A stretch of 64,000 nt of DNA from Streptantibioticus silvisoli (GTDB lineage: Bacteria > Actinomycetota > Actinomycetes > Streptomycetales > Streptomycetaceae): NCBI RefSeq assembly GCF_027947535.2, contig NZ_JAAGKO020000002.1, positions 124,001 to 188,000 on the forward strand, written 5' to 3'. The first letter of the stretch is position 1; the number at the start of each line of letters is the position of its first letter. Made by a program: the position numbers and the translations under genes. Of the stretch, positions 12,718 through 26,307 are shown one piece after another. The notes below the pieces were generated by a model. That model did not search any database. It was not told where the DNA came from and saw only the letters and a list, made by a program, of their open reading frames with translations.

Positions 12718-12991
12718 GCGGTGCGCTTCCGGTGGGGTGACGGTGGCGGTTCGACGCTGCCCGGTCCATCGGGGCCGACGGAAATCGGACGTTACGTCAG
12801 CGATTGTCCCGCGCGCACCGCCACGGACGCTCCTTGACGGTCGTACGGCGTGCCGTGTGCCGTGCCCGCGCAGGGGCCGGCTGACGTACACGTGCTGCGT
12901 GCCGTGCGCCCGCGCGGACGCCGGCTGACGTGTACGTACCGCATGCCGCGCCGCGGCGGACACCTTCCCCTGCGGCGCACCGCCACCGCCT
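12718..12991. other. Intergenic, low-complexity, no gene
   Basis: GC-rich sequence with GTGCCGTG/CGCCGGCTGACGT-type duplications (around 12885 and 12915). One early diverged copy of the 34-bp repeat (from about 12834) lies here. No convincing gene. Confidence 0.4.
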
Positions 12992-13160
12992 TTTCGACGA
13001 TCGTGCGGTGTACTGCGTCCTGCCTTGTCGACGGTCGTGCCGTGTACTGCGTGTTCTTCGGCAATCGTGCGGTGTACCGCGTGCTGCCTCGTCCACGGTC
13101 GTGCGGTGTGCCGCGTGCTGCCTCGTCCACGGTCGTGCCGTATACCGCGTGCCGTCTCTT
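12992..13160. repeat. Five degenerate ~34-bp tandem repeats, each with an inner dyad
   Basis: The landmark TCGTGC recurs at 13001, 13035, 13065, 13099 and 13133, i.e. spacings of 34, 30, 34 and 34. Each unit has the form CGACGGTCGTGC-GGTGTACCGC-GTGCTGCCTCGTC, and most contain the imperfect dyad GCGGTGTACCGC. The unit is not a multiple of three, so it is not protein-coding in origin. Diverged units continue to about 13220. The array ends ~250 bp before the small peptide gene at 13471. Confidence 0.7.
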
Positions 13161-13470
13161 CACCAGCCGAGCCGCGTACCGCCTCCCCAGCAGCCGCGCC
13201 GCGCACCGCATACCGCCCCCACACCCGCACCGCCCCCCAACCCCCGCCCCCAACCGCCGCGCAGCGTACCCGTACCGCCCGGACGGTCGGGTCTGCCGGG
13301 TGGGACGACGGGGGCGCGGGGGCTGTGAGCTGGCGGGGCGGCGGGATGGGAGCGGGGCGACATCGTGGTGACAGGCGGGCGTTGGGGGCGCGTTAGGACG
13401 CCGGTGGACTCTTCGTCCGGGCAGTCCGCCGGCGGTCGTCGCCGAGGGAGGCCCCTTAACGAAGGGACCG

Positions 13471-13593
13471 ATGATGAAGAAGATCGAGGTTCGCAAGACC
13501 GGCGACGTCCGCCTGACCAGCCACGCCAACCCGCTGTACGGCGCGGTGAACGCGGGCGTGCACGCCAACCTGACGATCATCACCTGCGGCTGA
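13471..13593 (+). CDS. 40-aa putative RiPP precursor or signalling peptide
   Basis: ATG ATG opens a 40-residue peptide: MMKKIEVRKTGDVRLTSHAN followed by PLYGAVNAGVHANLTIITCG and TGA. GAAGGG lies 4 nt before the first ATG and 7 nt before the second, so 13474 is equally possible. The N-terminal half is basic and charged, leader-like. The C-terminal half is hydrophobic with Thr, His, Asn and one Cys one residue from the end, core-like. There is no Sec signal. It lies upstream of a membrane M50 protease and a TPR protein on the same strand, with a strong hairpin between. This layout is typical of precursor-peptide genes. I do not recognise the peptide family; modification and export are inferred only from context. 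Confidence 0.65.
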   Translation: MMKKIEVRKTGDVRLTSHANPLYGAVNAGVHANLTIITCG

Positions 13594-13605
13594 GCCGTTG
13601 ACGCC

Positions 13606-13648
13606 GGCTGCCCGCGGGACCGCGCCCGGCGCGGCCCCGCGGGCAGCC
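13606..13648 (+). terminator. Long near-perfect hairpin between peptide and protease genes (attenuator)
   Basis: GGCTGCCCGCGGG pairs with CCCGCGGGCAGCC (13 bp). After one A/C mismatch, CCGCGCC pairs with GGCGCGG around a minimal loop, so about 20 bp pair within 43 nt. There is no T tract. Located 13 nt after the peptide stop and 40 nt before the next gene, it would act as a partial terminator or mRNA stabiliser, raising peptide transcript over downstream genes. Confidence 0.8.
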
Positions 13649-13687
13649 GCCACACCCCGCTGACCCGATCAGGACGAAGGTGGAGCG

Positions 13688-14944
13688 TTGGCAACCGTGG
13701 CCGACGAAGGACAACAGGCCGGACCGGCCGTCTTCGACCCCTCGCGGCCGGTTCCCGTGCACCCGCTGACCTACCTCGACGAGGGGGACGAGGTCACGGT
13801 GGGCCGCCGGGAGGCCGGCACGTACGTGGTGCTGCCCGCGGACGGCGCCGCGCTGCTGCGCAGACTGGAGGCAGGGGCCACGCCGGCCGAGGCGGCCGCC
13901 TGGTACCGGGAGACCTACGGCGAGCCGGTCGACATGGCCGACTTCTGCGACACCCTCGGCGAGCTGGGCTTCCTGCGGGCGGCTGGCGAGGACGCGGTCG
14001 CGGACGAGGGTCCGGTGCGCTGGCAGCGGCTGGGCCGGGCGCTGTTCTCGCTGCCCGGGGCGCTGCTCGCCGTCGCCCTGCTGGCGTTCGCGGTCGTGGA
14101 GATGCTCCGGGTGCCGGGCCTGGCACCGCGCTACACCTACGTCTTCTTCAGCCGCTCGATGGTGCTCAACGGCGTGGTGCTGGCGTTCGGCCAGATCCCG
14201 CTGGTGCTGCTGCACGAGGCCGCGCACGCGCTGGCCGGCCGGCGGCTGGGTCTGCGCTCGCACCTGTCGATCGGCCGGCGGCTGTACTACCTGGTGTTCC
14301 TCACTGAGCTGAACGGCCTCGTCACCGTCGAGCGGCGCAAACGCTACCTGCCGATGCTCGCCGGGATGATCACCGACGTGCTGGTGGCCGCGGCGCTCGT
14401 GCTGGCCGCCGACGCCATCCGGCAGGACGGCCACCTGACGATGGCCGGCCGGATGCTGCTGGCCGTCGCCTACTTCACCCTCGTCCGCATCCTGTGGCAG
14501 TTCCTGTTCTATCTGGAGACGGACCTGTACTACGTGGCCGTCACCGTGCTGGGCTGCGTGGACCTCCAGACGACGGCCCGGCGGGTCGCGTACAACAACC
14601 TGGCGCGGCTGGCCGGGCGGCGCACCCCCAGGTACGACGAGTCGGTCTTCCATCCGCGCGACCGCGAGGTGGCCCGCTGGTACTCCTGGCTGGTCGTCGT
14701 GGGGTACGCGGTGTCCATCGGCATGCTGCTGATGACGACCGTGCCCATGATCACCATGATCCGCCTGGTCTTCGGCCGCTTCCTGCACCCGGCGCAGGCC
14801 AGTACCGGCGGGCTGGTCGACAGCGGCACGTTCGTCCTGATCATCCTGGCCCAGGTCTTCCTGCTGCTGCGGCCCACCCTCCAGGCCCGCCGCGCCGCCC
14901 GGGCGGCCACCGCCGACCGCGTCCTGCTGAACGGAGAGTCATGA
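13688..14944 (+). CDS. Membrane M50-family zinc metalloprotease with possible PqqD-like N-terminus
   Basis: A 418-residue integral membrane protein. Residues ~20-98 form a soluble alpha/beta domain (HPLTYLDEGDEVTVGRREAG, with ALLRRLEAGATPAEAA) that resembles PqqD/RiPP-recognition domains by eye. Hydrophobic helices follow at ~118-140, 155-185, 222-242, 258-275, 335-360 and 380-395. LLHEAAHALAG (H176-E177-x-x-H180) is the HExxH zinc site inside a membrane helix, as in M50 proteases; FYLETDLYYV (~274-283) may supply the third ligand. The start is uncertain: TTG 13688 has GAAGG 7 nt upstream and GTG 13697 has GGAG further away. ATGA overlap couples it to the TPR gene. The expected job is cleavage of the adjacent peptide's leader, or its export. 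Confidence 0.8.
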   Translation: MATVADEGQQAGPAVFDPSRPVPVHPLTYLDEGDEVTVGRREAGTYVVLPADGAALLRRLEAGATPAEAAAWYRETYGEPVDMADFCDTLGELGFLRAAGEDAVADEGPVRWQRLGRALFSLPGALLAVALLAFAVVEMLRVPGLAPRYTYVFFSRSMVLNGVVLAFGQIPLVLLHEAAHALAGRRLGLRSHLSIGRRLYYLVFLTELNGLVTVERRKRYLPMLAGMITDVLVAAALVLAADAIRQDGHLTMAGRMLLAVAYFTLVRILWQFLFYLETDLYYVAVTVLGCVDLQTTARRVAYNNLARLAGRRTPRYDESVFHPRDREVARWYSWLVVVGYAVSIGMLLMTTVPMITMIRLVFGRFLHPAQASTGGLVDSGTFVLIILAQVFLLLRPTLQARRAARAATADRVLLNGES

Positions 14945-17241
14945 CCACCGCCCCCGCACACCGCTGGCTCGTCACCGCGGACGGCACCCGGGCCGCCGCC
15001 GCCCCCGGCCCGGACGCGCCGGCGCTGCTGCCGACGGTCAGCGCCCACCGGCGGCTGCGCGGTCCGTACACCGCGGCCGGCACGATCCTGCGGGCCGTGG
15101 TGCCGCAGGCGCTGGAGCGCTTCCCCGACCTGGTCGAGGCCCACCTCATCGAACTGCTGTCCGCCGCACCGGAGTTGCGCAACTCGGTACCCGCTCCGGA
15201 GGGCACGCTGACCTCGCTGGCCATCCCGAAGGAACGCACCCGGTTCTACTCCCGGCTGCGCACCCAGCGCATCGCGCACGGCATCACCGACTTCCTCCGT
15301 GATCTGATGCTCCGTCAACCAAGCGGTCCCGCAACGCTGGTGATTGAACGCGCCGAGGAAGCCGACGCCACCGACGCCGAGTTCACCGCGATCCTGCTGC
15401 GCCGGATGCCCGCCGAACTGCTGGCCGTCACGGTGGTGACCGCCGCCGGCGCCACGCCGCAGCCCGGACTGGTGACCGCGCTGGAGCGGTACGCGACCCG
15501 CACCGACCTGCCCCCGGCCCCGCCGGCCCCCGCCGAGGAGACCGCCAACCCGTTTGACGCCGCCCGCCGTTGGGTCGACAGCGAGTGCCTGGCCACCGAT
15601 CCGGCCGGCCGGGCCGCCTACCGGGCGCTGGATGCGGCCGACCGCGCCGCGCTGCACGACGCCCGCGCCGAGGCGCTGGAGAACGGCGGCCAGGGTTCGC
15701 GGCGCCTCGGCGCGATCCCGTTCCACCGCGAACACGGCGCGGACCCGTCCGGCGCCGGCGTCGAGGCGCTCTACCTCGCCTCCGACTGGTGCATCGCGCT
15801 CGGCTTCTACGACATCACCATCGAACTGGCCCGGCGCGGGATCGCGTTGACCCCCGAGGGCGAGGAACAGGACTTCGGCAGCGGGCCGGTGCCGCGCTGG
15901 TGGCCGCTGACCACCAAGGTCACCATGTCGCTGTCCGCGCTCGACCGGGCCGAGGAGGCGCTCGCCGTCTACGACGCCACCCGGGCCCGCACCACCTCGC
16001 CGCGCGTCCACATGCACGCCGCCTACGCCACCGCCATGCTCTACACCCGCCACCTGCCGCCCGAACGCCGCGACCACCGCATGGCCCTGGGCTGGGCCAA
16101 CATCGCCATCGCGTTCGCCGCCGGCATCGACGAGAGCGAGGACCGGGCGTTCTCCACCGTCTTCCAGCAGAACGGCCGCGCCCTGGTCGAGGGCCACCTG
16201 GGCAACGCCGAGGAGGCGCTCGCCCTGGTCACTGACGGGATCGCCCGGCTGGACGCCGAACTGGGCGAGAACGACCACGCGCTGCACCGCTCGGTACTGC
16301 GCCACAACCGCGCCCTGGTCCTGAAGGGCCTCGGCCGGCTCCAGGAGGCACGCGAGGACTACGAGACGGTCATCGCCCTCGACCCGAACTACGCCGAGTA
16401 CCACTTCGAGTACGCCGGCCTGCTGCGGGGCCTCGGCGAGGAGGAACGGGCGCTCGCCGAGTACGACGTCGCCGCCCGGCTGACCCCGCCGTTCGTCGAG
16501 CTGTTCTACAACCGCGGGGACCTGCGGGCCGTGCGCGGCGACGTGGCCGGCGCGCTCGCCGACTTCGACTACGTGCTCGAACTCGACCCGGAGTACGTCG
16601 ACGCCTACGTCAACCGGGCGGCGCTGCTGCTGCGCGAGGGCGACCTCGACGGCGCCGCACGCGACGTCGAGGCCGGCCTGCGGCTGCGCCCCGGCGACCC
16701 GCACCTGCGCAGCCAGCGGGCCCGCGTGGCCTGGGAACGCGGCGCGCTGCGGGAGGCGATCGAGGTACTCGACGGTGTGCTGCGCGACGCGCCCGACATG
16801 GCCGAGGCGTGGGCGCTGCGGGCCGCCGTGCGGTTCGACGACGCGGACCCGGCCGGCGCGCTCGCCGACCTGACCGCGTCGCTGGACCGCGAGGAGTCGG
16901 CCGCCGTCCGGTTCAACCGGGGTGCGGTGCACGAGGAGTTGGGCCGGTTCGCCGAGGCCGCCGAGGACTTCGGCCTCGCGATCGGCCAGGACCCCGGCGA
17001 CCCCGACGGCTGGCTGCGGCACGCCGTCTGCGCCGCCCGCCTCGGCGACCACGCCACCGCCCGCGCCGACCTCGCCCACTGCGCCGCCCTCGCGCCGGAC
17101 CGCGCGGCGCAGGCGACGGCGGAGGTGGAGGAGGCGCTGGCGGGGGATGCGGTGAGGGGCGGTGCGGTGGCTGGGGGTGCCGCGGTTGACGGTGCGGTGG
17201 TCGACGGTGCCGTGGCCGGTGGGGCGGTGGCCGCCCGGTGA
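14941..17241 (+). CDS. Large TPR-repeat protein with degenerate ATPase-like N-terminal region
   Basis: A 766-residue soluble protein. Around residues 110-165, RIAHGITDFLRDLML, GPATLVIERAEEADATDAEF and LLAVTVVTAAG resemble the Walker-B part of STAND/LuxR-type ATPases, but no Walker A is present. From ~250 the protein is helical and becomes canonical TPRs at ~480-740 (DYETVIALDPNYAEYHFEYA; DFDYVLELDPEYVDAYVNRA). The final ~30 residues are a Gly/Ala/Val repeat (GGAVAGGAAVDGAVVDG). Its ATG overlaps the protease stop (ATGA), so the two are made together. It may bind the peptide or a partner enzyme, as TPR proteins do in RRNPP-type peptide sensing, but no DNA-binding domain is seen. Confidence 0.8.
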   Translation: MTTAPAHRWLVTADGTRAAAAPGPDAPALLPTVSAHRRLRGPYTAAGTILRAVVPQALERFPDLVEAHLIELLSAAPELRNSVPAPEGTLTSLAIPKERTRFYSRLRTQRIAHGITDFLRDLMLRQPSGPATLVIERAEEADATDAEFTAILLRRMPAELLAVTVVTAAGATPQPGLVTALERYATRTDLPPAPPAPAEETANPFDAARRWVDSECLATDPAGRAAYRALDAADRAALHDARAEALENGGQGSRRLGAIPFHREHGADPSGAGVEALYLASDWCIALGFYDITIELARRGIALTPEGEEQDFGSGPVPRWWPLTTKVTMSLSALDRAEEALAVYDATRARTTSPRVHMHAAYATAMLYTRHLPPERRDHRMALGWANIAIAFAAGIDESEDRAFSTVFQQNGRALVEGHLGNAEEALALVTDGIARLDAELGENDHALHRSVLRHNRALVLKGLGRLQEAREDYETVIALDPNYAEYHFEYAGLLRGLGEEERALAEYDVAARLTPPFVELFYNRGDLRAVRGDVAGALADFDYVLELDPEYVDAYVNRAALLLREGDLDGAARDVEAGLRLRPGDPHLRSQRARVAWERGALREAIEVLDGVLRDAPDMAEAWALRAAVRFDDADPAGALADLTASLDREESAAVRFNRGAVHEELGRFAEAAEDFGLAIGQDPGDPDGWLRHAVCAARLGDHATARADLAHCAALAPDRAAQATAEVEEALAGDAVRGGAVAGGAAVDGAVVDGAVAGGAVAAR

Positions 17242-17273
17242 GCGACGGGGCCGCGGCGGGTCGTCCCCGTCGC
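17242..17273 (+). terminator. Hairpin after the TPR gene
   Basis: GCGACGGGG / CCCCGTCGC pair (9 bp) directly after the stop; an alternative pairing GGGGCCGCG / CGCGGCCCC overlaps it. Confidence 0.6.
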
Positions 17274-17336
17274 GGCCCCGGACGTCGCGGCCCCGGATGT
17301 CGTTGGCCCCGGATGTCGCCGGCCCCGGACATCGCG
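17271..17336. repeat. 15-16-bp tandem repeats between convergent genes
   Basis: Units of the form GCGGCCCCGGATGTC repeat about four times with small changes in the gap between the TPR gene and the SARP gene. No reading frame is associated. Confidence 0.6.
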
Positions 17337-17443
17337 GCTTGGAGATCGTGGCTCCGGCTCCGGCACCGGAGGTCCGGGGCGCGGGGCCCCGGACATCGCA
17401 GCCCCCGGCCCCGGCACCGGCGTGCCTCCCGCGCGGCCCGCCG

Positions 17444-18202
17444 TCAGGCGTACGTACCGGGGGCGAACGACTCGCCGGACAGGACGCGTTGGTGCGCCTG
17501 GCGCAGTTCGAAGCCGGGTTCGATGCCCAACTCGCTGTTGAGCAGCCGGCGGGCGTCCTGGTAGACGGCCAGCGCCTCGGCCTGCCGGCCGGTCCGGCAC
17601 AGCACGGTCATCAACTGGCAGTGGAAGCGCTCACGCAGCGGGTGGGCGCCGACCAGCTGGCGTAATTCGCCGACCAGCAGCGGGTCGTGGCCGGACCGCA
17701 GGTCCGACTCGATGCGCCACTCGACCAGTTGGAGCCACCGTTCGGTCAGCGCCGGCACCCACGCGCCGCGCAGCGGTTCGCACGGCACGTCGCCCAGCGG
17801 GGTGCCGCGCCACAGGTTCAGCGCGGCGCGCAACGGCGCCCCGGTCCGTTCCCAGGCGCCGGCCACGACGGCGGCCTGCGCGGCGCGGGAGAGCGTCTCG
17901 AAGGCCATCAGGTCCGACTCCGCGTCGTGGACCTCCAGTTGGTAGCCCGGGAAGCTCGTCACGAGTCGCGCGCCGGCCGGGCCGATCGTCCGTCTGAGCC
18001 GGTTGACGTGGTTGTGCAGCGCCGCGCGCCACGACGGGGGCGGCGTGCCGTCCCAGACCAGGTCGGCCAGGTGGTCGACGGAGACGGGGTGGTTGGCGCT
18101 CAGGATCAGGGTGGCGAGCAGGACCCGCTGTTTGGGGGCGGGGACCAGACGGCGGACGGTCCCGTCGTGGACCAGGAGTTGTCCCAGAACGCCGAATTTC
18201 AT
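17444..18202 (-). CDS. SARP-family (AfsR/BTAD) transcriptional regulator with a TTA codon
   Basis: A 252-residue protein: an OmpR-type winged-helix DNA-binding domain (~1-95, MKFGVLGQLLV, LLATLILSANHPVSVDHLAD, LRRTIGPAGARLVT) and a bacterial transcriptional activation domain (~100-245, with ERFHCQLMTVLCRTGRQAEA and ARRLLNSELGIEPG). This is the minimal SARP form that activates antibiotic and RiPP clusters. ATG 18202 follows GGGGGA at a good distance; an upstream ATG at 18223 is less likely. A TTA leucine codon (complement 17663-17665, in GELRQLV) makes translation dependent on the bldA tRNA, linking it to development. It is convergent with the peptide-protease-TPR genes and is their probable activator. 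Confidence 0.9.
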   Translation of the reverse strand: MKFGVLGQLLVHDGTVRRLVPAPKQRVLLATLILSANHPVSVDHLADLVWDGTPPPSWRAALHNHVNRLRRTIGPAGARLVTSFPGYQLEVHDAESDLMAFETLSRAAQAAVVAGAWERTGAPLRAALNLWRGTPLGDVPCEPLRGAWVPALTERWLQLVEWRIESDLRSGHDPLLVGELRQLVGAHPLRERFHCQLMTVLCRTGRQAEALAVYQDARRLLNSELGIEPGFELRQAHQRVLSGESFAPGTYA

Positions 18203-19403: not shown

Positions 19404-19559
19404 TCAGTGGTGGTGGTAGTGGTGGACGATGACGTGGTGGTGCACCACCGTGTGGTGGACCACGGTGTGGTGCGTGACGGTGTGGTGGGTGCACGCGCTG
19501 GAGAACAGGGCGACGGCGAGAAGTCCGGTGGTGGCGGCGAGCGTCCGCATCTTCGACAT
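19404..19559 (-). CDS. His-rich mini-lipoprotein, putative metal (nickel) binder
   Basis: From ATG 19559 the minus strand encodes 51 residues: MSKMRTLAATTGLLAVALF-SSAC, a lipoprotein signal with a lipobox-like SSAC, then a mature chain of 28 residues almost wholly His, Val and Thr (THHTVTHHTVVHHT, then VVHHHVIVHHYHHH). Half of the mature residues are His. Such a surface-anchored chain would bind Ni2+, Co2+ or Zn2+. ATG 19565 would add two residues; no strong ribosome-binding site was seen for either, so the start is uncertain. It lies divergent from a NiCoT permease with a Nur-type box between them. Other frames here are just reflections of the CACCAC repeats. Confidence 0.65.
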   Translation of the reverse strand: MSKMRTLAATTGLLAVALFSSACTHHTVTHHTVVHHTVVHHHVIVHHYHHH

Positions 19560-19711
19560 GATCATGTACACGCGACTACCCGCACAGTGGTTGCACAGAC
19601 TTCAGTGAGATCTACCTCTCACACCCCTCCCGTTGCGCCCAAGTCCCGTTTGTTCAATAGGAGTTGGTCTCACTCGTGGTAAACCCCCACCCGGATGCCG
19701 ATCCGACGCTA

Positions 19712-19802: not shown

Positions 19803-20945
19803 ATGGCCGTCACAACGACCGCCGCCGCGCCCGAGGCGCCGGCGTCCGGCTGGAGCCGGTTCCGTAACTCGATGACCCGGCGTGAGTGGGCGCGGATGAG
19901 CGGGATGGCCGGCTTCGTCGTGCTGCTGCACGTGGTCGGCTGGGTGACGCTGCTGGTGATCGTCGCGCCGCAGCACCTGAGTGTGGGCGCCAAGTCGTTC
20001 GGCATGGGCATCGGCGTGACCGCCTACACCCTCGGTATGCGGCACGCGTTCGACGCCGACCACATCGCGGCCATCGACAACACCACGCGGAAACTGATGC
20101 ATCAGGGCCAGCGGCCGCTGTCGGTCGGCTTCTGGTTCTCCCTCGGCCACTCCAGCATCGTCTTCGGGCTGGCGTTCCTGCTGTCGATGGGCGTCAAGGC
20201 GCTGGCCGGCCCGGTGGAGGACGACGGCTCCCAGCTGCACAACGTCACCGGGCTGGTCGGCACCACGGTCTCCGGCGCGTTCCTCTACGTCATCGCGATC
20301 ATCAACATCGTGATCCTGCTGGGGATCTGGAAGGTCTTCCGCTCGATGCGCTCCGGCGAGTTCGACGAGGCGGCGCTGGAGGAGCACCTCAACAACCGCG
20401 GCCTGATGAACCGGTTGCTGGGCCGGGTGATGAAGTCCATCAGCAAGCCCTGGCAGATGTATCCGGTCGGCCTGCTGTTCGGCCTCGGCTTCGACACCGC
20501 CACCGAGATCGCCCTGCTGGTGCTGGCCGGTTCCGGCGCCGCCTCCGGCCTGCCCTGGTACGCGATCCTGTGCCTGCCGGTGCTGTTCGCGGCCGGCATG
20601 TCGCTGCTGGACACCATCGACGGCTCGTTCATGAACTTCGCCTACGACTGGGCGTTCTCCAAGCCGGTCCGCAAGGTCTACTACAACCTCACCATCACCG
20701 GCCTGTCGGTCGCGGTCGCCCTGATCATCGGCACCGTGGAACTGCTCGGCCTGCTCGTCCAGCAGCTGCACCTGCGCGGCGCGTTCTGGAACTGGGTCGG
20801 CGGCATCGACCTCAACGCCATCGGCTTCGTGATCGTCGGACTGTTCTTCGTCACCTGGCTGGCGGCGCTCGCGGTGTGGAAGTTCGGCCGCATCGAGGAG
20901 AAGTGGTCGGCCGGACTGCGCCCCGCCCCCGAACCCGCCGACTGA
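19803..20945 (+). CDS. NiCoT-family high-affinity nickel/cobalt permease
   Basis: A 380-residue inner-membrane protein with about eight transmembrane helices. The family signature RHAFDADHIAAIDN (HX4DH, metal recognition) is in the second helix. FSLGHSSIVFGLAFLLSMG and LLFGLGFDTATEIALLVLAG are the other two conserved NiCoT motifs. It imports Ni2+ and/or Co2+ at trace concentration, typically for Ni-SOD, urease or hydrogenase. ATG 19803 has AGGGAGAGG upstream. The Nur-type box in the promoter suggests repression when nickel is sufficient. The length agrees with the family. Confidence 0.95.
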   Translation: MAVTTTAAAPEAPASGWSRFRNSMTRREWARMSGMAGFVVLLHVVGWVTLLVIVAPQHLSVGAKSFGMGIGVTAYTLGMRHAFDADHIAAIDNTTRKLMHQGQRPLSVGFWFSLGHSSIVFGLAFLLSMGVKALAGPVEDDGSQLHNVTGLVGTTVSGAFLYVIAIINIVILLGIWKVFRSMRSGEFDEAALEEHLNNRGLMNRLLGRVMKSISKPWQMYPVGLLFGLGFDTATEIALLVLAGSGAASGLPWYAILCLPVLFAAGMSLLDTIDGSFMNFAYDWAFSKPVRKVYYNLTITGLSVAVALIIGTVELLGLLVQQLHLRGAFWNWVGGIDLNAIGFVIVGLFFVTWLAALAVWKFGRIEEKWSAGLRPAPEPAD

Positions 20946-21694: not shown

Positions 21695-21823
21695 GCCGGC
21701 GGCGACGCCCGTGAACCGTCCCCGCGGCGGGCCGCCCCCGGCGCCGTCCGGCGCTCCACCGCTCCCCGCCATCGGGCCGTTTACGCAGGTCATGGGAGAA
21801 TCCGCCGGGAGGTGACCCGGCCG

Positions 21824-24508
21824 ATGCGCACCCTGCTGATCGACAACTACGACTCGTTCACCCACAACCTGGCCCACCAGATCACCGCCGTGACCGGCCG
21901 TGAGCCGGTCGTGGTGCGCAACGACGACCCCGGCTGGCGACTGGGCCGGCTGGCCGGCTTCGACGCGGTGGTGCTCTCGCCCGGCCCCGGCACCCCCGAG
22001 CGGGCCGCCGACTTCGGCGTCTGCCGCGAGGTGATCGACCGCTGCGGACTGCCGCTGCTCGGCGTCTGCCTGGGCCACCAGGGCATCGCCGCCCGGTACG
22101 GCGCCACGGTCGCCCCCGCCCCGGAGCCCGTGCACGGCAGGACCTCGCCGGTGCTGCACGACGGCACCGGACTGTTCGCCGGCCTCCCCTCCCCGTTCGA
22201 CGCCGTCCGCTACCACTCGCTGACCGTCACCGGCCTCCCCGCCGAACTGGCCGCCCTCGCCCGCACCCCGGACGGCGTCCTGATGGCGCTGCGCCACCGC
22301 ACCCGGCCGCAGTGGGGCGTCCAGTTCCACCCCGAGTCCATAGCCACCCGCCACGGCGACCGCCTGCTGGCGAACTTCGTTGCCCTGGCGGCGGCGGAAC
22401 GCGTCCCGCGCGAACGGATCGGGACGGCGGGGGAGTGGAGGACAGCGGGGGAATCCGGGTGGGCGGGCGCGTCGGAAGCGGACCTGGAGCCGGGGTTGGG
22501 CCTGATGCCGGGGGCGGGCCTTGGACCGGAGCCGGCACCGGAACCAGGACCGCAATCAGGACCGCCACCGGGACCGGACGTGTGGCCGCGGTCGCCGGGG
22601 GACGTCGTGCCGCCGCGGGTGACGCGGTCGTACGAGCTGATGGTCGAACGGGTCGGCGGGCCGGTGGACGCCGAAGCCGCCTTCGACGCGCTGTTCCGCC
22701 GCGGACCGTACGCGTACTGGCTCGACAGCTCCCGAGCGGGCGGCGGGCCGCAGCGCGGGCGGTTCTCGGTGCTGGGCGACGCGAGCGGCCCGCTGGCCCG
22801 GGTGGCGACCGCGGACGTCGCTGCCCGCACGGTGACCGTACGGTCCGCGGCGGGCGAGGAGACGGTCGCCGGCGCCTTCCTGGACTGGCTCGACCGCGAC
22901 CTGCGCGCGACCCGCCTCACCACTCCGGCGCCGCCCGTGCCGCCGTGCGACTTCGCGCTCGGCTGGGTGGGCTACCTCGGCTACGAGCTGAAGGCGCAGT
23001 GCGGCGGCCGGAACGCGCACCGGTCGCCCGACCCGGACGCGGTGATGGTGTTCGCCGACCGCGCGCTCGTCATCGACCACCTCGCTGGGGAAACGTATCT
23101 GTTGGCGCTGGCCCGGACCCCGCCGGCCGATGATCCGGCGGCCGACGATCCGGTGACGGTGGCCGATGACCCGGCGGCCGACGATCCGGCGACGGTGGCC
23201 GAGGGCCCGTCGGCCGACGGTGCCGCGGCCGAGGGTCCCGCCGCTGACGGCCCGGCGGCCGACATCCACCCCGCCCCCGCAGACCGCCCCGTAGACCGCC
23301 CCGCAGACCGCCTCGCCGCCGCGTGCTGGCTGCGGGAGACGGCCGACCGGCTGCGGTCCCTGGCCGCGCTCGCGCCGCCCGCCGCCGGGCCCGCGCTGGA
23401 ACTCGCCGGACCGCTCGCCCTGCGGCACGACCGGGCGCGTTACCTGGAGCTGATAGCCGACGCGCAGCGCCAGATCGCGGCCGGCGAGACGTACGAGGTC
23501 TGCGTGACCAACGAGATCGTGGCGCCGCTCGCCGGGTACCGGCCGGACACCGCCTGGCGGGCGTACCGCGCCATGCGGCGTGCCGCGCCCGCGCCGTTCG
23601 GGGCGCTGCTGTGCTTCGGCGGTCTCGCGGTGCTCAGCACCTCGCCGGAACGTTTCCTGCGGGTCGCCGCCGACGGCCGCGCCGAGTCCCGCCCGATCAA
23701 GGGCACCCGGCCGCGCGGCGCCACCCCGCAGCAGGACGCCGCGCTGCGCGACGAGCTGGCCACCTCGGAGAAGGACCGGTCGGAGAATCTGATGATCGTC
23801 GACCTGGTCCGCAACGACCTCGGGCGCAGCGCGGTCCCCGGATCGGTCGAGGTGCCGGGGTTGTTCGAGGTCGAGACGTACGACACCGTGCACCAGCTCG
23901 TCAGCACGGTGCGCGCCACCCTGCGGCCGCGGGCGTCGGCGGTGGACTGCGTGCGGGCCGCCTTCCCGCCCGGTTCGATGACCGGCGCCCCCAAGATCCG
24001 CACCCTGAGCGTGCTGGACCGCCTGGAGGCCGGACCGCGCGGTGTCTACTCCGGCGCCGTCGGCTACTTCTCGCTCACCGGCGCCGCCGATCTCAGCGTC
24101 GTCATCCGCACCGCCGTCCTCAGCCCCGGAACGCCGGGTGAGTCCGGCGCCCCCGGAATCCCCGCCACCCCCGGAACGCCCGGCGCCCAGGCAATCCCCG
24201 GTGAGCCCGGCACCCCCGGCACCCACGCAATCCCCGGCACCCCCGGCCCCCCGGCAACGCCCCCCACCCCCGCGCGGGTGCGCTACGGCACCGGCGGCGC
24301 CGTCGTCGCGCTGTCCGACCCCGGGGCCGAGTTCACCGAGACCGTCGTCAAGGCAGCCCCGCTGCTCGCCCTGACCGGAGGCGTCTTCCCCGGCGCCGGG
24401 CGGGCCGGTGCCGGTCACGGTCCCGGCGCCGGAGCCCGGGTGATCCCGCGCGACACCGGGGGCGGGCGCGGTGCGAACGCGGCGATATCCGGTACAACCG
24501 GACGGTGA
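21824..24508 (+). CDS. pabAB: Fused aminodeoxychorismate synthase (PabA-PabB) with collagen-like insertions
   Basis: An 894-residue fusion. Residues ~1-190 are the glutamine amidotransferase: LLIDNYDSFTHNL, LLGVCLGHQG (catalytic Cys) and FHPES (His/Glu). Residues ~260-890 are the chorismate-binding synthase: SRPIKGTRPRGATPQQDA, EKDRSENLMIVDLVRNDLGR and PPGSMTGAPKIRT. The product is 4-amino-4-deoxychorismate for folate or, in clusters, for p-aminobenzoate-derived antibiotics. ATG 21824 is preferred because GTG 21812 overlaps the GGGAGG site. There are three odd low-complexity insertions: a Pro/Gly linker (~225-250), an Ala/Asp/Pro run (~435-500), and a collagen-like Gly/Pro segment of ~45 residues inside the C-terminal catalytic region (GTPGESGAPGIPATPGTPG) just before RVRYGTGGAV. 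Confidence 0.93.
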   Translation: MRTLLIDNYDSFTHNLAHQITAVTGREPVVVRNDDPGWRLGRLAGFDAVVLSPGPGTPERAADFGVCREVIDRCGLPLLGVCLGHQGIAARYGATVAPAPEPVHGRTSPVLHDGTGLFAGLPSPFDAVRYHSLTVTGLPAELAALARTPDGVLMALRHRTRPQWGVQFHPESIATRHGDRLLANFVALAAAERVPRERIGTAGEWRTAGESGWAGASEADLEPGLGLMPGAGLGPEPAPEPGPQSGPPPGPDVWPRSPGDVVPPRVTRSYELMVERVGGPVDAEAAFDALFRRGPYAYWLDSSRAGGGPQRGRFSVLGDASGPLARVATADVAARTVTVRSAAGEETVAGAFLDWLDRDLRATRLTTPAPPVPPCDFALGWVGYLGYELKAQCGGRNAHRSPDPDAVMVFADRALVIDHLAGETYLLALARTPPADDPAADDPVTVADDPAADDPATVAEGPSADGAAAEGPAADGPAADIHPAPADRPVDRPADRLAAACWLRETADRLRSLAALAPPAAGPALELAGPLALRHDRARYLELIADAQRQIAAGETYEVCVTNEIVAPLAGYRPDTAWRAYRAMRRAAPAPFGALLCFGGLAVLSTSPERFLRVAADGRAESRPIKGTRPRGATPQQDAALRDELATSEKDRSENLMIVDLVRNDLGRSAVPGSVEVPGLFEVETYDTVHQLVSTVRATLRPRASAVDCVRAAFPPGSMTGAPKIRTLSVLDRLEAGPRGVYSGAVGYFSLTGAADLSVVIRTAVLSPGTPGESGAPGIPATPGTPGAQAIPGEPGTPGTHAIPGTPGPPATPPTPARVRYGTGGAVVALSDPGAEFTETVVKAAPLLALTGGVFPGAGRAGAGHGPGAGARVIPRDTGGGRGANAAISGTTGR

Positions 24509-24567
24509 CCGTCCTGCGGACGGCACCCGCCGCCCGCAGGACGCCCCCGACCGCGAGGAGCCCCCCG

Positions 24568-26307
24568 GTGCCCACCCCCAGCGTCGCCGACCAGTTCGTG
24601 CAGGTCCTCGTGCAGACCGGCGTCCAGCGTGTCTACGGTGTCGTCGGCGACAGCCTGAACCCGCTGGTCGACGCCATCCGCCGCACGCCGGGCATCGACT
24701 GGGCGCACGTGCGCAACGAGGAGGCCGGCGCGTTCGCCGCCGCGGCCGAGGCCCAGATCACCGGGCGGCTCGCGGTGTGCGCCGGATCGTGCGGACCGGG
24801 CAACACCCACCTCGTCCAGGGCCTGTACGACGCCCAGCGCTCCGCCGCCCCGGTGCTGGCGATCGCCTCGCACATCCCCTCGACGCAGATCGGCACCGGG
24901 TTCTTCCAGGAGACCCACCCGGAGCAGCTGTTCGCGGAGGCCGCCGGCTACTGCGAACTCGTCTCGCAGCCCGAGCAGATGCCGCGCATCCTGCGCATCG
25001 CCGTCCAGCACGCCGTCGGCGCCCCCGGCGTCTCGGTGCTGGTGCTGCCCGGCGACATCGCGGCCCGCCCGGCCGCCCACCCCACCGGCGCCCCCTCGGC
25101 GGTCGCCGCGCCGGGCGCCGTCCACCCCGACCCGGACGCGGTGCGCGCGCTGGCCGCCGCGCTGAACGCCGCCCGCCGCGTCACGCTCTTCTGCGGCGCC
25201 GGGGCGCGGCAGGCGCACGCCGAGGTCATGCGGCTGGCCGGCACGCTGCACGCCCCGGTCGGGCACACGCTGCGCGGCAAGGAGTGGATCCAGTTCGACA
25301 ACCCCTACGACGTCGGGATGATCGGCCTGCTCGGCTACGGCGCGTGCTACGAGGCGCTGCACGAGGCCGACCTCGCGGTGCTGCTGGGCGCCGACTTCCC
25401 GTACGACGACTTCCTGCCCGGCGAGCACACGGTCCAGGTCGACCACGACGCCACCCGGCTCGGCCGCCGCACCCCGCTGGAGGTGGCCGTGCACGGCGAC
25501 GTCGGTGCCACCCTGCGCGCGGTGCAGCCGCTGCTGACCGCTCGCGAGGACCGCCGGTTCCTCGACGACATGCTGCGCAAGCACGAACGCGCCCTGACCA
25601 AGGTCGTCGGCGCCTACACCCGCGACGTCGAGAGCCACCTGCCGATCCACCCCGAGTACGCCGCCAGCCTGCTGGACCGACTGGCCGCCGACGACGCGGT
25701 GTTCACCGTCGACACCGGCATGAACAACGTGTGGGCCGCCCGCTACCTCACCCCCAACGGCCGCCGCCGGGTGATCGGTTCGTTCACCCACGGCACGATG
25801 GCCAACGCGCTGCCGCACGCCGTGGGCGCCGCGTTCGCCGAGCCGGGACGCCAGGTCGTCGCGCTGTGCGGCGACGGCGGACTGAGCATGCTGATGGGCG
25901 AGTTGATCACCGTCGTCCAGCACGGGCTCGACGTGAAGGTCATCGTCTTCAACAACTCCTCGCTCGGCATGGTCAAGCTGGAGATGATGGTCGACGGGCT
26001 GCCCGCCTTCGAGACCGACCACCCGGCCGTCAACTACACCGCTGTCGCTGAGGGGTTGGGCATCCCGGCGGTCCGGGTCGAGAAGCCCGGCGCGATCCGC
26101 GAGGCGTTCCAGCACGCGCTGGAACGGCCCGGGCCCGCGCTGGTCGAACTGGTCACCGACCCCAACGCGTTGTCCATCCCGTCGCACATCACCGCCGGCC
26201 AGGTGCGCGGCTTCGCCCTCGCCGCCGGCCGCACGGTCCTCGACGGCGGCGTCGGCTCGATGCTCGACCTGGCCCGCTCCAACCTCCGCAACCTGCCCCG
26301 CCCTTGA
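24568..26307 (+). CDS. poxB: Thiamine-diphosphate-dependent pyruvate oxidase/dehydrogenase (PoxB-like)
   Basis: A 579-residue protein, normal for the family. N-terminal ThDP (Pyr) domain: GVQRVYGVVGDSLNPLVDAI, HVRNEEAGAFAAAAEAQITG (catalytic Glu). Central FAD-binding domain: RRVTLFCGAGARQAHAEVM. C-terminal ThDP (PP) domain: ALCGDGGLSMLMGEL (GDG...N motif, with VIVFNNSSLGMVK). It oxidatively decarboxylates pyruvate to acetate and CO2 using FAD with quinone or O2 as acceptor. The start GTG 24568 has GAGGAG 7 nt upstream; in-frame codons further up run into pabAB. It is 59 bp after pabAB and may be co-transcribed, though no functional link is obvious. Acetolactate synthase is the main alternative, less likely given the sequence after the Glu motif. 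Confidence 0.88.
   Translation: MPTPSVADQFVQVLVQTGVQRVYGVVGDSLNPLVDAIRRTPGIDWAHVRNEEAGAFAAAAEAQITGRLAVCAGSCGPGNTHLVQGLYDAQRSAAPVLAIASHIPSTQIGTGFFQETHPEQLFAEAAGYCELVSQPEQMPRILRIAVQHAVGAPGVSVLVLPGDIAARPAAHPTGAPSAVAAPGAVHPDPDAVRALAAALNAARRVTLFCGAGARQAHAEVMRLAGTLHAPVGHTLRGKEWIQFDNPYDVGMIGLLGYGACYEALHEADLAVLLGADFPYDDFLPGEHTVQVDHDATRLGRRTPLEVAVHGDVGATLRAVQPLLTAREDRRFLDDMLRKHERALTKVVGAYTRDVESHLPIHPEYAASLLDRLAADDAVFTVDTGMNNVWAARYLTPNGRRRVIGSFTHGTMANALPHAVGAAFAEPGRQVVALCGDGGLSMLMGELITVVQHGLDVKVIVFNNSSLGMVKLEMMVDGLPAFETDHPAVNYTAVAEGLGIPAVRVEKPGAIREAFQHALERPGPALVELVTDPNALSIPSHITAGQVRGFALAAGRTVLDGGVGSMLDLARSNLRNLPRP

Follow-up and report, generated by a model that had tools for sequence, protein, structure and literature searches.

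The window analysed here is a stretch of 64,000 nucleotides from Streptantibioticus silvisoli. It contains a compact locus in which a very short peptide gene is followed, on the same strand, by genes for a membrane metalloprotease and a large TPR protein, and then by a SARP regulator gene on the opposite strand (Table 1). These are the four open reading frames named in an original prediction made from the DNA alone, and each lies where it was placed. The ATGA overlap that the prediction read as coupling the protease and TPR genes is present in the window, but it is not a general rule: the two genes overlap in 29 of 104 loci, and in most of the others they are close.

Table 1. Features of the peptide, protease and TPR locus, in window coordinates.
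Feature	Coordinates	Strand	Basis
Precursor peptide gene, 40 aa (39 aa from the second Met, 13474)	13471..13593	+	Profile search, 111 homologues
Leader MKKIEVRKTGDVRLTS, conserved putative recognition part	13474..13521	+	Invariant residues, few codon replacements
Variable tail or core HANPLYGAVNAGVHANLTIITCG	13522..13590	+	Tails diverse, Tyr and Cys kept
Tail codons for Tyr and Cys	13537-13539 (Tyr), 13585-13587 (Cys)	+	
Strong hairpin between peptide and protease genes, without T-run	13606..13648	+	RNA fold
RRE-M50 (site-2-protease-like) membrane metalloprotease, 418 aa, TTG start	13688..14944	+	
RRE/PqqD-like domain (protease residues 27-92), predicted three strands then three helices	13766..13963	+	
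HEAAH zinc-binding motif (residues 176-180) in a predicted membrane helix	14213..14227	+	
Thr278-Asp279, the Asp a probable third zinc ligand	14519..14524	+	100% in close and remote homologues
TPR protein, 766 aa: predicted NTPase-like N-terminal domain without Walker A, then TPR superhelix	14941..17241	+	
SARP regulator, optional neighbour; ORF start possibly 18223	17444..18202	-	BTAD, Trans_reg_C

Other features of the window lie around this locus. Degenerate GC-rich tandem repeats with 34- and 64-bp periods occupy 12849-13252, separating the peptide gene from an L,D-transpeptidase-like gene. On the minus strand, 19404-19571 encodes a putative 55-aa lipoprotein whose tail is almost pure His/Val/Thr; the adjoining gene (19803-20945, plus strand) encodes a NicO-type nickel transporter, and the lipoprotein is possibly nickel-binding. 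Farther on, 21812-26307 (plus strand) encodes a fused glutamine amidotransferase/chorismate-binding enzyme and, after it, a TPP enzyme; another biosynthetic region possibly starts here.

The full window peptide is MMKKIEVRKTGDVRLTSHANPLYGAVNAGVHANLTIITCG. Its relatives begin at the second methionine, and the window peptide probably starts there as well. The family shares the leader consensus MKKIxVRKxGxVRLTS, in which M1, K2, R7, G10 and T15 are invariant across 31 relatives. A search with a profile of 28 positions, built from 31 relatives, recovered 111 copies, distributed over 70 of the 249 Streptomycetaceae genomes sampled. In every case (111/111) an M50 homologue follows on the same strand within 0.9 kb, an arrangement expected by chance at about 1e-4 per copy. 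Conversely, the peptide is present at 100 of the 101 close M50 homologues in the 249-genome sample, and at 102 of 103 non-redundant close loci after manual checks; no recognisable peptide was found at the close protease locus L098. The search proposed with the original prediction has thus been carried out, and homologous M50-TPR pairs are indeed preceded by a conserved peptide. A separate scan of contigs carrying the protease covered seven loci, from Yinghuangia, Streptantibioticus, Actinacidiphila, Streptacidiphilus, one Streptomyces strain and two Streptosporangiaceae MAGs, and found a small ORF with the same leader just upstream in 7/7.

The two halves of the peptide differ in how they change. 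Compared with its two nearest relatives, the window has 0-1 replaced codons in the leader and 9-11 in the tail. At five loci the peptide gene is repeated in tandem (2-4 copies), the leaders being nearly identical and the tails varied. The locus shows the arrangement by which a RiPP is recognised, a short encoded precursor with a conserved leader and a variable core beside maturation genes. The peptides contain no hydrophobic Sec-type signal stretch.

Tails in the main sample are 9-24 residues long and extremely varied. Even so, Tyr and Cys both occur in 78/78 distinct intact tails and in 32/32 families; when residues were shuffled among families 20,000 times, a mean of 16.9 and a maximum of 25 of 32 families carried both. 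This sample excludes one degenerate 35-residue copy without Tyr/Cys (L072). Tyr falls at tail positions 5-8 in 74 of 79 tails, the position of Cys wanders, and the Tyr-Cys spacing ranges from -6 to +16. Because 43 of the 78 distinct tails have a single Cys, an intramolecular disulfide is not the common reason for its presence. An exception to the pair, found by a different route than the main sample, is a plasmid cassette situated between transposase genes (L164, NZ_CP109482.1 269821-280780), whose tail SAPFSHQPAIVPV has neither Tyr nor Cys; the rule is therefore strong, not absolute. The full peptide at this locus is MRKISVRRTEPIKVTSAPFSHQPAIVPV, and the plasmid record NZ_CP109482 annotates its protease as a hypothetical protein. 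As for the Thr/His/Asn/Cys makeup that had been remarked on in the C-terminal half of the window peptide, the Cys is a general feature, together with Tyr, but the Thr/His/Asn composition is not.

The hairpin between the peptide and protease genes, also part of the prediction, is real and is conserved across loci. The 95-nt gap has a predicted fold of -57.7 kcal/mol, and a stem of at least 8 pairs occurs in the equivalent gap at 95% of 86 loci, the median z relative to mononucleotide shuffles being -2.8. No classical terminator was found at the hairpin on the plus strand, an Rfam search with the hairpin gave no match, and sigma-70 promoter and terminator scans returned nothing relevant.

Homologues of the protease were found in 82 of the 249 Streptomycetaceae genomes. 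H176, E177, H180 and D279 are present in 100% of 102 close and 18 remote homologues. An HExxH motif in a membrane helix together with a distal Asp identifies an M50/site-2 protease, and the invariance of these residues in 120 sequences bears out the membrane protease with HEAAH in a helix that had been proposed. The window protein scores 16.5 bits against PF02163 (M50), for which the Pfam gathering score is 27.2, and is at best a divergent member of that family. It also matches NF058609 (YydH/LiaK/EpeP) weakly (E 4.8e-4, 19.9 bits against a cut-off of 225), and its family weakly matches the daptide HExxH model. The whole-protease sequence has no direct match in the PDB.

The proposal that the N-terminus of the protease resembles an RRE was followed up in several ways, and each points to that fold. 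On their own, 30 of 53 protease relatives match PqqD in Pfam (best 1.4e-6); the score of the window protein itself is below the gathering cut-off. A profile of the domain found TbiB1 and TfuB1 as its best matches in the PDB, with weak E-values of 0.03 and 0.07. AlphaFold2, in runs that used 7 and 5 sequences, predicted the order strand-strand-strand-helix-helix-helix. In Foldseek the top match is TbiB1 with leader (probability 1.00), and TigE, ThcOx, McbB and TfuB1 are also matched. In the fold search with the whole protein, the RiPP-relevant matches come from this part only, the others being low-probability membrane proteins. With three predicted strands, three predicted helices and a PqqD-like (PF05402-like) profile, residues 27-92 are, by sequence and model, an RRE.

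A full-length TPR homologue lies downstream of 103/103 non-redundant close M50 genes. Its C-terminal part is predicted to form a TPR superhelix resembling the one in O-GlcNAc transferase (OGT) (AlphaFold2, Foldseek), and its N-terminal part has a weak match to AAA_16 (E 0.03). A Walker A motif was found in 0 of 105 TPR proteins, and the protein does not qualify as a STAND/AAA NTPase; the window protein has no match to an HTH, DNA-binding or other output domain. The superhelix contains the conserved residues N411, N456-R457, N524-R525 and N659, Asn and Arg side chains that would fit binding of a peptide backbone. Further invariant polar residues are R154, R155, H239, R242, H262, Y362, R370 and D378. 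The predicted fold and these conserved residues suggest the role proposed below for the TPR protein. In a mirror-tree test that corrected for the protease, the correlation between core and TPR distances was only weak (partial rho 0.13).

Two genes alone accompany every protease, those for the peptide (except at L098) and the TPR protein (103 loci). The convergent SARP gene of the prediction is present in the window and encodes a SARP by its domains (BTAD 1.4e-42, Trans_reg_C 4.1e-7), but such a gene lies within ~18 kb in 16 of 104 loci. It is a lineage-specific neighbour, and its proposed place in the system, as a core component, was rejected. An XRE/ImmA-like/membrane trio occurs in 16-17 of 103 loci (about 16%), and a flavin-reductase-like gene (PF01613) is found near the TPR gene in about 20% of loci. 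Such neighbours occur at L007 and within L059-L162, mostly 3.4-3.8 kb after the protease start. A link between the flavin gene and Tyr-Cys spacing was considered and rejected (p = 0.33). Among conserved neighbours (~18 kb, 103 loci) there is no conserved radical SAM, YcaO, LanM, P450 or aminotransferase, and the ten window neighbours scanned include no known RiPP-modifying enzyme. Neither a dedicated exporter nor an immunity gene is conserved. A reading as a defence system was also rejected, PADLOC having given no meaningful match.

About one in three of the Streptomycetaceae genomes sampled carries the cassette, some of them in several copies. In a phylum-wide sample a protease homologue was found in 4 of 396 genomes; the system is therefore concentrated in Streptomycetaceae and relatives. 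Beside remote proteases (about 30-35% identity) the TPR gene is mostly absent, and an RRE-ThiF cluster protein is found at 15 of 19 such loci. A few remote loci have peptides with related leaders, for instance MKKLIVRRLESVKTSAATSCSVVVA and MKIQIRKLERIETTVACACGSCSDC, and MKMKKFAIRDVETVKTTAAALYIPFFCGGGGWPF is the peptide of a more distant relative elsewhere in the phylum, whose TPR protein is weakly similar. On this evidence the cassette is one member of a wider group of RRE-S2P peptide systems. The remote RRE-M50 proteases at L104-L120 and L123, most of them beside RRE-ThiF and a few with leader-like peptides (e.g. L111, L112, L116 and L123), form a putative second peptide system.

Several known systems resemble the cassette in part. 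The daptide protease MpaP is an RRE-S2P protease that removes the leader (PMC10036551), a precedent for this architecture that the original prediction does not mention. Like the window protease, MpaP/DapP (NF041824; PMC10036551) is actinobacterial, has the RRE on the N-terminus of an M50/S2P protein and lies adjacent to its precursor gene. Daptides, however, have the leader motif ELExMEAP and a core that ends in Thr, which the cassette tails do not, and they need an oxidative decarboxylase, an aminotransferase, a methyltransferase and a DUF-RRE protein, which the cassette is without (~18 kb, 103 loci; ten window neighbours). The window protease has no match to NF041824 at E<=1; a remote cousin alone matches it (1.5e-5). 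With the enzyme set absent and the tails lacking a terminal Thr, the cassette is not a daptide locus. Another likeness is to the epipeptide protease YydH/LiaK/EpeP (NF058609), an HExxH membrane protease that matures a small peptide; EpeP is thought to cleave and export the epipeptide (PMC10885120). Neither the epipeptide radical SAM epimerase nor an ABC exporter is conserved at the cassette, and with 19.9 against 225 bits an assignment to the epipeptides was rejected too. The lasso-peptide RREs TbiB1 (5V1V) and TfuB1 (6JX3) share the predicted fold and the profile of protease residues 27-92. They are stand-alone proteins that work with a cysteine protease and a macrolactam synthetase, whereas the RRE of the cassette is carried on an S2P protease.

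In RRNPP receptors such as Rap, NprR and PlcR, a TPR superhelix is paired with a short peptide gene. The cassette has both of these elements. Its TPR protein, in contrast, has no match to an HTH or output domain, a long superhelix and a degenerate NTPase-like head, and its peptide has no apparent secretion signal; with no DNA-binding or other output domain matched, the cassette falls outside RRNPP quorum sensing. RRE-ThiF enzymes such as GrcB/IndF are of a type known to form thiolactones (PMC12150305); the remote cousins of the window protease adjoin RRE-ThiF proteins and some leader-like peptides. A ThiF gene is not conserved beside the window-type cassette, which has the TPR gene instead. 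The claim that the locus fits no standard RiPP class holds. No known modifying enzyme is conserved, and neither the daptide nor the epipeptide definition applies.

Neither the peptide nor the cassette is in NCBIfam release 20 or Pfam, and the leader strings tested occur in no paper of the literature searched. The main texts of the RRE-Finder, 2025 structure-based RRE and decRiPPter papers mention neither M50 nor tetratricopeptide. From these absences, and from the annotation of the plasmid protease as hypothetical, the cassette is, as far as searched, undescribed as a trio; its kind, RRE-guided peptide maturation by an S2P protease, is already known.

The locus is best explained as a minimal RiPP-like cassette, in which the RRE-guided M50 protease would cut off the leader and release a Tyr/Cys peptide, and the TPR protein would bind the precursor or the product. 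We give this reading a probability of about 0.72. Conservation, gene order, catalytic residues, the Tyr and Cys bias and the hairpin are shown, as is the RRE fold by predicted model and profile. The reading is further favoured by the weak matches to LiaK/YydH and daptide HExxH, by the precedents MpaP and EpeP, and by the leader-like peptides beside some remote proteases. Weighing against it are the Pfam M50 and PqqD scores of the window protein, which fall under the cut-offs, the lack of a conserved exporter or immunity gene, the weak core-TPR correlation, the L164 tail and the missing peptide at L098. Since the peptide proved conserved and the N-terminus has the predicted RRE fold, RRE-guided cutting with TPR binding is well supported as a hypothesis. 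From these parts we infer the following steps. The cytosolic RRE domain would hold the leader KKIxVRKxGxVRLT as a beta strand, and the intramembrane zinc site (HEAAH...D279) would cut it close to where leader and core meet, around LTS-A/S. A short peptide, almost always with Tyr and Cys, would then be released, probably across the membrane. The TPR superhelix may bind either the precursor or the released peptide along its length, and would act as a delivery or quality scaffold for the protease or else as a receptor inside the cell. Placed behind the peptide gene, the hairpin could let the precursor exceed the enzymes in amount.

Among other explanations, Tyr and Cys may serve only the recognition or function of a linear peptide, with no covalent modification, Tyr at tail position 4-8 being a cleavage-site determinant and Cys a metal ligand or a partner in intermolecular disulfides. 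This is a tentative possibility: Tyr is nearly fixed relative to the leader (74/79 at 5-8) while Cys wanders, but no metal-related gene is conserved and the obligatory TPR protein is left unexplained. Alternatively, the locus could make a true RiPP by new chemistry, a Tyr/Cys modification being made before cleavage by the NTPase-like domain of the TPR protein, by the M50 protease or by an enzyme encoded at a distance. Such a route we regard as rather doubtful, and its envisaged products, a thioether, thioester or other macrocycle, as equally so. The retention of Tyr and Cys in 78/78 cores where all else varies (43/78 with a single Cys), the invariant polar TPR residues, the flavin-reductase-like gene at about a fifth of loci and the remote cousins with RRE-ThiF of the thiolactone-forming type (PMC12150305) all speak for it. 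Against this, no known modifying enzyme is conserved and Walker A is absent, a spacing of -6 to +16 would be unusual if a single enzyme were at work, the flavin gene shows no association with that spacing (p = 0.33), and one copy has neither residue.

Peptide signalling of the RRNPP kind would assign the protease the task of freeing a linear signal. The TPR protein would sense this signal, either after its re-import or because it had stayed in the cell, and the neighbouring SARP or XRE/ImmA-like regulators would act downstream. TPR proteins are the classical receptors for peptides, the hypervariable tails and the occurrence of several proteases in one genome recall pherotypes, and regulators do lie near subsets of loci (SARP 16/104, the XRE/ImmA-like/membrane trio 16-17/103). 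A signal, however, would not require Tyr and Cys in every tail; no HTH is matched in the TPR protein, the peptides have no hydrophobic Sec-type stretch, no single regulator is conserved, and TPR-core covariation is not clear. Signalling is judged unlikely. That the small ORF is a chance frame or a regulatory uORF, with the M50-TPR pair acting on something else, would agree with the absence of the peptide from public family databases. Amino-acid conservation across genera and families, tandem duplication and a leader nearly free of replacements all contradict it; the conservation of the peptide effectively refutes this idea, and we give it almost no credence.

For the minimal cassette preferred here, the obligatory Tyr and Cys in otherwise free cores are a sharp, testable puzzle, even with a rule that is not absolute (L164). 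Searches for known modifying enzymes would have missed such a cassette because it contains none. Dozens of natural leader-core variants before one protease family offer a test bed for how an RRE steers an intramembrane protease. It is improbable, in our estimate, that the cassette is a new RiPP class, defined by a modification of Tyr and/or Cys that is made by one of two proteins outside the known RiPP enzymes, the RRE-S2P protease itself or the TPR protein, whose NTPase-like head is degenerate; if this were true, three small genes would make a modified peptide library across Streptomyces. A near-constant leader joined to divergent Tyr/Cys tails looks like an undescribed route to small peptide products or signals.
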